Source of the DNA: Deltaproteobacteria bacterium
GTDB lineage: Bacteria; Desulfobacterota; BSN033; UBA1163
Length of the DNA: 54,340 bases
Reading direction: 5' to 3'
Assembly: GCA_018333535.1 (NCBI GenBank)
Contig: JAGXTA010000123.1
Location: 1-54,340, forward strand
Shown one piece after another: positions 28,252-31,234 of the stretch. Below the pieces are notes generated by a model, which was not told the DNA's origin, did no database searches, and worked only from the letters and a program-made list of their open reading frames with translations. A program made the translations under genes and the position numbers. Each line of letters starts with the position of its first letter. Within the stretch, counting starts at the first letter, position 1.

Positions 28252-29262
28252 GGAGCTATCCGCTTGACTCAAGTAGACCCAACATACACTGAATCACGAG
28301 GTAACCCTTCCACCCCGAATATCCCGTCCTGTCACGGGAGCCACAGATACAGCCTGCTGGACCAGACGGAAGAAGAGTTTCCCTCTGGACTTCGACGTCC
28401 TTCGATTGAATCGGAAAGTATATTCATCCAGATAGTAGTCCAGATGGGACGCACGCACCGCTCCTTGATGAGTGCCTTGCAACCACCTCTTCAACAACGC
28501 CGCTACTCTGTTCACCAAAGGCAACAGGTTTTCACCTACATCCGCAGATTGACGGACAACGATGTGTTGATAATCGGTCGAGGGCAATTGCCCATAGCTA
28601 GACCAACCGTCGGTGCGTATCACACTGCCAGGCTCCACACTTTCCTCTATGGCGGGTATCAGACTTGCTGCCGAAGCATTGGCCACCCGGCGAAGTCGAA
28701 TTCGCCCTATGTGGTCGCCGTTATCTTCAACCGCTATAAGAACCAACGATTTACCTGCAGCACCTCTTCCTCTTTTCCCCGATCGTTCGCCACCGATATA
28801 AATTTCGTCAACCTCGACCGTGCCAGACAAGCGATCTCGGCCAGGTCGCACCATGGCAGTGCGAAGCTTATGAAGCCATATCCATATAGTTTCATATCTT
28901 GGGAATCCCAAAACTCGTTGGAGTCCCATGGCACTGACTCCATTTTTTTGGCTGACTATATGCCAAATCGCCCGAAACCAAAGCTGAAGCGGTTTTCGAG
29001 TATCTTGAAAGATGGTCCCTGCCGTTACAGAGGTTTCGTACTCACATTGCGCACAATGGTGCAGCTTGCGACTGGTAACCCACGACTTTTCAGTTCCACA
29101 GCGGGGACACCGAAAACCATCAGGCCATCGAAGGCTGATTATATATTCTATGCACGCTTGCTCGGAGTGAAACCTTCTTTCAAATTCCATTAGCGTTCGT
29201 GGATAGTCTTCCATACCCGATCATCTTAAATGAGCGGGGAACTTGAGTCAAGCGGATAGCTC
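28252..29262. mobile_element. IS1595-family insertion sequence with perfect ends
   Basis: The element is bounded by 22-bp perfect terminal inverted repeats (28253-28274 and 29241-29262, starting GAGCTATCCGCTTGACTC). An 11-base direct repeat, TAAAAAAATAT, flanks it at 28241-28251 and 29263-29273. IS1595 elements normally duplicate 8 bp, so part of the 11 may be chance. It carries one intact transposase and looks recent. It inserted 37 bases beyond the hgcB stop. Confidence 0.92.
28294..29214 (-). CDS. IS1595-family transposase
   Basis: The 306-residue transposase has the N-terminal zinc ribbon (FRCPRCGTEKSW, HHCAQCEYETSV) and the DDE-type core with VEVDEIYIGGERSGKRGRG, IRTDGWSSYGQL and the C-terminal YLDEYTFRFNRR, all standard in IS1595. 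The frame is complete, so the element may be active. A long open frame on the opposite strand over the same span is a shadow. Confidence 0.93.
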   Translation of the reverse strand: MEDYPRTLMEFERRFHSEQACIEYIISLRWPDGFRCPRCGTEKSWVTSRKLHHCAQCEYETSVTAGTIFQDTRKPLQLWFRAIWHIVSQKNGVSAMGLQRVLGFPRYETIWIWLHKLRTAMVRPGRDRLSGTVEVDEIYIGGERSGKRGRGAAGKSLVLIAVEDNGDHIGRIRLRRVANASAASLIPAIEESVEPGSVIRTDGWSSYGQLPSTDYQHIVVRQSADVGENLLPLVNRVAALLKRWLQGTHQGAVRASHLDYYLDEYTFRFNRRTSKSRGKLFFRLVQQAVSVAPVTGRDIRGGRVTS

Positions 29263-29299: not shown

Positions 29300-29638
29300 T
29301 CAACAACACCCTGTTCGCTTAGCATCAGGAGAGCATCTCGATGGATTGCTTGCGGAATCTATTGTACCGCAGCAGGGAGAATTTGTTCGCCCCAGCATGA
29401 CGTTGATCACTGCGGCGGCGCACCCCACGCCCGACTGAACGCTTAATGCCTCAGCAGGACAATTTCTGGAACAGGCCCCGCATTCCATACAGGCGTCCCG
29501 GTTGACGATCTCAGCAGCGCCATTTGTCAAACTTAAGACGGCGTGGGGACAAACCAATAGACACATGCCACATCCCACACACTTTTTCTCGTCAAGCTTC
29601 AAGGTGACCACATCTTTCAGATAAATCAGTTGATTCAT
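29300..29638 (-). CDS. hgcB: mercury methylation ferredoxin HgcB
   Basis: The 112-residue protein has two [4Fe-4S] motifs, CVGCGMCLLVCP (Cys20-30) and CMECGACSRNCP (Cys50-60), then SGVGCAAAVI with the HgcB-type Cys73, a CC pair (89-90) and a terminal CC (111-112). CMECGAC and the Cys-rich tail are HgcB hallmarks. HgcB reduces the corrinoid of HgcA so that a methyl group can go to Hg(II). The tail is longer than in many HgcB proteins. It has an AAGGAG site. The hgcA gene lies 168 bases upstream, with a palindromic repeat in between. The TGA stop follows Cys-Cys, but no SECIS-like hairpin follows it. Confidence 0.92.
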   Translation of the reverse strand: MNQLIYLKDVVTLKLDEKKCVGCGMCLLVCPHAVLSLTNGAAEIVNRDACMECGACSRNCPAEALSVQSGVGCAAAVINVMLGRTNSPCCGTIDSASNPSRCSPDAKRTGCC

Positions 29639-29806: not shown

Positions 29807-30955
29807 TTAGATAAATTGCGATCCAAGCCAGAGAATGAAGCCAATGATCCCTGCCCCAATCTGAAACGGCACGGCCCATCTCATCTCTTTTTTCACTCCT
29901 GAGAGAGAGGTATAGGTCGAGGCTCCTGTAAAATTCATCGCCATAAAAGCAGAAAACGCAGGTATGAGCAGGAGCCATGCCAGCATCTCAAAACGTCCTG
30001 CCAATGTGATCCCCTGATTCAATCGAAAAACGACAAAGAGAACAGCAGTGAATAACCCCACTGAAACACCTTTAATTGAAAAAGCCCGGCCCGGCAGCCA
30101 GGGCAGTAAGGCGGGTGTTAACACTGCCCCGGATAGAATGGCAATCAGAATGGCCAGTGCGGAGAAGAGACCCTGATGCAAGGCATTCGCCCAGCCCTCC
30201 CCTGACCTTCCTAAAAAAGTGATCAGAAACAGAATGGCCATGAGAATAAGCCCTGCCTTTAGGGCGGCGACAAGTTCAATGGGGATGAGTGCTATCCTCT
30301 CCCCGATTGGAAAAGTCTTGATTCTCATCTGCGGTGTCGCCTTCAATCCTGCATCGAGAAAAGCCGGAAGGTCTGTTGCCCGAATGGGCCCGTAAATAAC
30401 TTTAAATCCCGATAATTTTTTAACCTCATGAGCCGTCACCCCGGGGCCAGCCAACTGGGGCAGAATCAATTCCCGGTGTGAGACAATCTGTGTCAGGCCA
30501 CTCGATTCGATTCGGCTCACGAGTTCCATTGTTCCAAAAGTCCCCTTCCCTGCCGCACACCAGACATTGATCCCTTTTGTATCGAGGACCAGTATCCACA
30601 TGTTCCGACCGGGTAAGGCTTCTCGGAGTCTGTCAAAGCTCATTTTGTAACTGGCCGTAACCATGACCGGAGATTTCTCATCTGGCGTTCCCAGCGCATA
30701 AAGACCGGGCTCAACAACATAATGCATGCGGCCGATTCCCCATCGTGCCTTGAAGCTCCCAAGATGATCGCTCGGGGTGAGAGAAGATAAAACCTGTGGA
30801 ACCAAACCCACCGGCGTTTGAAGGGCTCCGCTCACAAAAGGCTGTTTTAGATCGGGAAGGCTCACCTGAGCCTTTACTACCGGGGGTCAACAGCTTGTGT
30901 TTTGAGAACAACCGCTCTGTTGAGCCGAGGTGTAACATTTTGATTCACCCATCAT
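29807..30955 (-). CDS. hgcA: mercury methylation corrinoid protein HgcA, predicted selenoprotein
   Basis: The core has the HgcA signature NVWCAAGKGTFGT, whose Cys (133 here) is the predicted cobalt ligand, and five C-terminal membrane segments. It methylates Hg(II) from a corrinoid methyl group. The open frame begins at a GTG (30865), but I place the start at ATG 30955. AAGGAGG lies 11 bases before this ATG, inside the end of hgcC, and the frame runs into the core through one TGA at codon 23 (30887-30889). The added tail holds Cys7, Cys16, Cys22 and Sec23, reading SQNTSC-Sec-PPVVKAQ. A 7-bp perfect hairpin with an AGGU loop follows 20 bases after the UGA. That GTG sits in this hairpin and has no good ribosome site. 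If the UGA is a stop, the first 22 codons are a leader peptide. Confidence 0.85.
30857..30874 (-). promoter_or_regulatory. bacterial SECIS-like hairpin in the hgcA mRNA
   Basis: Read on the - strand, AAGGCTC and GAGCCTT pair perfectly (7 bp) around an AGGU loop, with the stem starting 12 bases and the loop 19 bases after the UGA. G is among the first two loop bases, as the bacterial SECIS pattern requires. CGG and CCG can add a lower stem across a small internal loop. Confidence 0.7.
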
Positions 30956-30961
30956 AATCTT

Positions 30962-31234
30962 CTATACCTCCTTCATCATGGGGCCGAGAAAATCCTTCAC
31001 ACGGTCTGCAAGGTGTTCCGTCTTGATTAAATAGAGGCAACAAATCTCCCCCTCTTTATCCCAACTGATGAGAGCCAATTTGTCACCCGCACGAATCTTT
31101 GCTTTTTCCCTCAAATCTTTTGGGAGCACCATCTGCCCCCGCTCATCGACGCTGATGATCGACTCGACCTTGCAACAAGACATTCCCTTATCCACGGGTC
31201 CGCAAAATGAAACCCTTTGACTCTTCTTTGGCAT
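30962..31234 (-). CDS. hgcC: AbrB/SpoVT-like DNA-binding protein (HgcC-like)
   Basis: The 90-residue protein has a swapped-hairpin AbrB domain (KVESIISVDERGQMVLPKDL, REKAKIRAGDKLALI) after a short Cys-containing head (Cys11, CC at 20-21). It lies six bases upstream of the hgcA ATG and carries the hgcA ribosome site in its last codons, so the two are co-expressed. A gene of this type is known next to hgcAB in several genomes and named HgcC in some annotations; I apply the name on context. It may repress its own promoter, which overlaps a 9-bp palindrome, and sense metal through its Cys residues (inference). Confidence 0.78.
   Translation of the reverse strand: MPKKSQRVSFCGPVDKGMSCCKVESIISVDERGQMVLPKDLREKAKIRAGDKLALISWDKEGEICCLYLIKTEHLADRVKDFLGPMMKEV

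Follow-up and report, generated by a model that had tools for sequence, protein, structure and literature searches.

A predicted selenocysteine in the flexible N-terminal tail of HgcA at an hgc locus of a deltaproteobacterium

HgcA is the protein responsible for methylmercury formation, and mercury and selenium have a very high affinity for one another. At the hgc locus on a contig of a Deltaproteobacteria bacterium (54,340 nucleotides, JAGXTA010000123.1, analysed over its whole length and referred to here as the window), the frame leading into the HgcA core is interrupted by one TGA, which raises the question of whether this triplet is a stop or a selenocysteine (Sec) codon, and of what a selenocysteine would do there. 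The original prediction, that HgcA is a selenoprotein bearing a Cys-Sec tail at its N-terminus, is supported by relatives carrying CU or CC, by a covarying hairpin and by the presence of Sec genes, and we consider it very probable that hgcA at this locus encodes a selenoprotein in which UGA 30887-30889 specifies Sec within a flexible Cys-Sec tail, most likely acting as a mobile soft-metal ligand.

The hgc locus and the tail of HgcA

The three genes are arranged on the minus strand in the order hgcC, hgcA and hgcB (Table 1), such that hgcA has an adjoining hgcB, a feature of HgcA membership, while an IS1595-family transposase gene (28294-29214, minus strand; NF033547, 202.6 bits) lies directly 3′ of hgcB. 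HgcA carries the cap-helix motif NVWCAAGKG, of which residues N-V-W-C-A are invariant in the alignment and whose cysteine is, by motif, the counterpart of Cys93 in P. mercurii ND132 (PMC7305189), and its C-terminal transmembrane domain is represented in the AlphaFold model by long helices at residues 223-247, 253-282, 291-308, 317-339 and 350-380. Among structures in the PDB, relatives of the corrinoid domain are found in CFeSP only.

Table 1. Positions of features at the hgc locus of the window
Feature	Position	Strand	Remarks
hgcC, AbrB/MazE-type HgcAB-associated protein	30962..31234	-	NF040962, 129.4 bits (cut-off 70); PF04014
Ribosome-binding site AAGGAGGT	30966..30973	-	Within 3′ end of hgcC, 10 bases 5′ of ATG 30955
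hgcC stop codon TAG	30962-30964	-	
hgcA	29807..30955	-	NCBIfam NF040863, 464.4 bits (cut-off 275)
ATG, first candidate start of hgcA	30955-30953	-	Six bases past hgcC stop TAG
N-terminal tail preceding Sec	30890..30955	-	22 codons with Cys7, Cys16 and Cys22; predicted disordered
In-frame UGA, predicted Sec codon	30887..30889	-	Right behind Cys22, motif S-C-U-P-P; codon 23 from ATG 30955, codon 22 from ATG 30952
Bacterial SECIS-like hairpin	30857..30874	-	AAGGCUC-AGGU-GAGCCUU; perfect 7-bp stem, apical G at loop position 2
GTG, start expected from an ordinary gene caller	30863..30865	-	Inside the hairpin
Cap-helix Cys of corrinoid domain (NVWCAAG)	30557..30559	-	Expected Co ligand; invariant in 40 aligned HgcA
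hgcA stop codon	29807-29809	-	
hgcB, dicluster ferredoxin	29300..29638	-	GVGC and C-terminal Cys-Cys; NF040864, 118.7 bits (cut-off 99)

The elements on which the original prediction built its reading frame, namely a ribosome site at the end of hgcC, an ATG six bases 3′ of that gene and a lone TGA at codon 23 leading into the HgcA core, are all present in the sequence, and the frame is otherwise open down to the stop at 29807, giving a product of 382 amino acids from ATG 30955, or of 381 from ATG 30952, when the TGA is read as Sec. Because relatives align with the second ATG, the true start of hgcA may be at 30952. The codons for the four tail residues that had been singled out (Cys7, Cys16, Cys22 and the predicted Sec23) are likewise present, albeit only the Cys22-Sec23 pair is conserved among aligned relatives, Cys7 and Cys16 being variable. 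Residues 1-26 of the AlphaFold model, the pair included, have pLDDT values below 50, and the corrinoid domain and membrane helices are modelled with confidence.

The Cys-Sec pair and its putative role

In the mechanism that we propose, ribosomes would start hgcA at ATG 30955 or 30952, and SelB, carrying Sec-tRNA(Sec) and docked on the downstream hairpin, would insert Sec at the UGA, so as to yield a flexible tail ending in ...Ser-Cys-Sec-Pro-Pro... ahead of the corrinoid domain; the pair would then take up Hg(II) or CH3Hg+ and exchange the metal with the corrinoid, with its cap-helix cysteine or with the cysteines of HgcB. According to the published HgcAB model, HgcB ends in a disordered tail whose Cys pair would deliver Hg(II) to the corrinoid and hand on CH3Hg+ (PMC7305189). 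By analogy, the HgcA tail could represent a second arm of this kind, made stronger or faster by selenium, as both combine adjacent thiols, a disordered tail and a proposed function as carrier of Hg(II)/CH3Hg+, whereas the HgcB pair belongs to the partner protein, is found at the opposite end and consists of cysteines only at this locus. A role of the tail in Hg capture or electron transfer is plausible, and the metal-handling role of the pair, taken alone, appears somewhat favoured.

Cys-Sec pairs commonly perform thiol redox chemistry, and HgcB is the reductant. The main rival concerning the role is one in which Sec is inserted as proposed but the pair serves as a redox (selenenylsulfide) switch, or as an electron relay from HgcB to Co, rather than as a metal ligand. 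We regard such a redox function as unlikely, though as deserving serious consideration, given that adjacent CC or CU residues on disordered tails resemble metal-trafficking pairs such as those at the C-termini of MerA and HgcB (PMC7305189), and that the pair is replaced across relatives by a single Cys, by CGC or by UC, or is missing altogether. HgcA proteins of Desulfobulbaceae and Dehalococcoidia share the core domains, but some have a tail with neither Cys nor Sec, or no tail, and because some HgcA are without any tail Cys the Cys/Sec pair is not required for all HgcA function. As a putative metal ligand, the tail would thus be an aid and not a requirement.

The UGA codon, its counterparts in relatives and the downstream hairpin

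Alignment of the N-termini of related HgcA proteins, a check suggested with the original prediction, places CU or CC at the same position. In a first survey, covering relatives from named genomes together with kin of the window, UGA occupies the matching position in 27 distinct loci, a count that includes the window and leaves out one false case, while about 40 loci have a Cys at or beside this position within an uninterrupted frame, mostly as CC or CGC, as exemplified by ...GACCPPEGEAQDSLPS of locus L031 aligned with ...TSCUPPVVKAQVSLPD. The Cys forms, which occur in Syntrophaceae, Smithella and others, are like the HgcA studied here in their corrinoid and membrane domains, tail length and tail pair, but have Cys in place of Sec, and their SECIS-like hairpin is either gone or present as a broken remnant only. 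Two further loci, L088 and L098, were rejected as UGA cases, having no SECIS-like hairpin and an ATG downstream of the UGA. Locus L054 presents a variant motif (T-U-A-T-S-C), in which a UGA 5′ of the HgcA core is followed by a perfect SECIS-like hairpin and has no neighbouring Cys. Among the carriers is a culturable organism, Desulfacinum infernum DSM 9756 (L096), in which the motif is G-U-C.

The 7-bp hairpin with its AGGU loop 20 bases past the UGA, and with the GTG enclosed, is found in the window just as it had been described, the stem being separated from the UGA by 12 bases and the loop comprising bases 20-23 after it. Counting both strands, the window contains 2178 TGA triplets, of which two, the hgcA one among them, are followed by a perfect hairpin with a 7-bp stem and a 4-nt loop at exactly this spacing; when the 46 bases are shuffled, a hairpin of equal quality arises in about 0.7% of cases. 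The main evidence beyond chance comes from conservation in relatives, nearly all of which have the apical loop beginning 19 (or 18) nt past the UGA; among the 43 apparently Sec-coded genes of the phylum sample described below the loop starts at 17-22 nt in 43/43 and at 18-19 nt in 33/43, with hairpin strength having been among the criteria so that these hairpins are partly selected. Across 26 aligned sequences, pairing is observed in 86.8% of cells as compared to no more than 58.2% after sliding of one arm, compensatory double changes affect six of the seven stem pairs (0-1 of 500 shuffles reaching the observed values), and the G at loop position 2 is invariant. RNAalifold independently proposed the inner five pairs, and an Rfam search of the hairpin region returned no match, a result that is neutral for either reading. 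The hairpin score at the matching place has a median of 16 in Sec forms versus 8 in Cys forms, for which the Mann-Whitney p of 1.8e-9 is only indicative, the sequences being related and not independent.

These comparisons bear directly on the possibility that the UGA is the true stop of a 22-codon leader, which would couple translation of hgcC and hgcA, with HgcA starting at GTG 30865 and lacking a tail. This GTG has a weak AAGG five bases upstream and is what an ordinary gene caller would report; in relatives, however, the triplet is GCG, TTG or GGG, the tail is in many cases encoded without interruption and has Cys in place of the UGA, and the hairpin shows covariation and persists only alongside the UGA, making a leader very improbable. 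The pattern that had been named as counting against the prediction, all relatives starting near the GTG with no conserved upstream tail, does not hold. An origin of the UGA by sequencing error, or by recent mutation of a decaying gene, has next to no probability, for although the window belongs to a draft assembly of 192 contigs and one relative, L061, does look decayed, this notion is already refuted by the same UGA in independent assemblies (L023, at 84% identity, among many), and the remainder of hgcA is intact with every invariant residue kept.

Returning to the UGA as a Sec codon, the host genome encodes tRNA-Sec with a UCA anticodon (selC) as well as selA, selB and selD, as the original prediction would lead one to expect. 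The host selD (L018, G000:C69:3542-4468) is itself interrupted by an in-frame TGA, close to the N-terminus of its product (KKAGUASKVGP), and SelD is thus itself likely to be a selenoprotein. Of 22 genomes carrying Sec-HgcA, 21 have selA, the exception being a 2.6 Mb MAG that is possibly incomplete; since 25 of 28 genomes whose HgcA is of the Cys form or tail-less likewise have selA, the machinery, though necessary, does not by itself discriminate between them. Comparison of sequences in this way establishes the reading frame, the Cys/Sec exchange, the SECIS-like element and the Sec machinery, from which we infer that Sec is actually inserted in the cell.

Sec-HgcA in the phylum and in earlier reports

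In an even draw of 395 genomes across the phylum, 116 had HgcA matches, and 111 HgcA genes were read: 43 contain a UGA and a SECIS-like hairpin in the tail, 40 have CC, 8 a CxxC-like pair, 7 a single Cys and 11 none, while 2 were too short. CUP and CUG prevail among the Sec motifs, and UC, GUS and LU occur in some cases. A tree built by a quick method from 78 HgcA cores, many of its forks being weak, implies about 11 state changes for Sec, of which well-supported branches force only 2. Damaged SECIS elements are retained in the CC forms L031 (GAGGCUCAGGAUAGCCUU) and L037 (GAGGCUCAGGUAAGUCC) and in L061 (AAGGCUCAGCUAAGCUU), where Arg instead of Sec follows the Cys. Such remnants are suggestive of Sec-to-Cys and Sec-to-Arg changes by which Sec was lost from Sec-coded ancestors, but this evidence is weakened because the remnants are few and the AQVSLP encoded by the hairpin may be conserved as protein. 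The L061 gene (L061:3914-5071), which reads AGA where the Sec codon would be and encodes a protein with an aberrant C-terminus, is part of an hgc locus that looks decayed. It is possible, though less likely than not, that Sec, predicted for about 39% of the sampled genes, is no exception in this phylum but a usual and perhaps ancestral condition of the HgcA tail, that Cys tails arose via repeated loss leaving broken SECIS remnants, and that many environmental methylators would thus depend on the supply of selenium for methylmercury formation.

Selenoproteins in methylmercury biosynthesis were reportedly described by Haft & Gwadz 2023 (J Bacteriol 205:e00259-22). The original prediction was wrong in taking Sec-HgcA to be unreported, as two later publications point to this 2023 report: a 2026 review lists HgcA (NF040863) as a selenoprotein with motif CU and example WP_250697417.1, citing its refs 61 and 63, the latter being Haft & Gwadz 2023 (PMC13188914), and a PNAS 2024 paper cites the same report for hgcA/hgcB selenoproteins (PMC11588087). 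The 2008 GOS paper, which as the numbering suggests is ref 61 of the review (PMC13188914), does not name the HgcA family in its main text. The HgcA described here is like the published example in its family, CU motif and a UGA-coded Sec missed by gene callers, and comes from another genome, so that the present locus is a well-supported further example of a known selenoprotein and, as such, a sound prediction; what may be additional to earlier work is the 39% share among sampled genes of the phylum, together with the SECIS remnants. If a large proportion of environmental HgcA carry Sec, selenium supply could directly affect methylation. Gene callers remove the HgcA tail, which would escape any study of an hgcA annotated from the GTG; the survey of SECIS elements and Cys/Sec exchange makes the role of this tail testable.

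The same review describes HgcB as a selenoprotein with motif GVGU (PMC13188914); every HgcB with a readable GVG motif in our set has Cys at this place (GVGC) and not Sec. The TGA that ends hgcB after its Cys-Cys was taken as an ordinary stop, relatives having TAA there. HgcC also carries a Cys-Cys pair, N-terminal to its AbrB domain (SCCKVESI), as do several of its relatives, while others have one Cys instead (e.g. NYCKVESI), and this pair could possibly serve in metal sensing.
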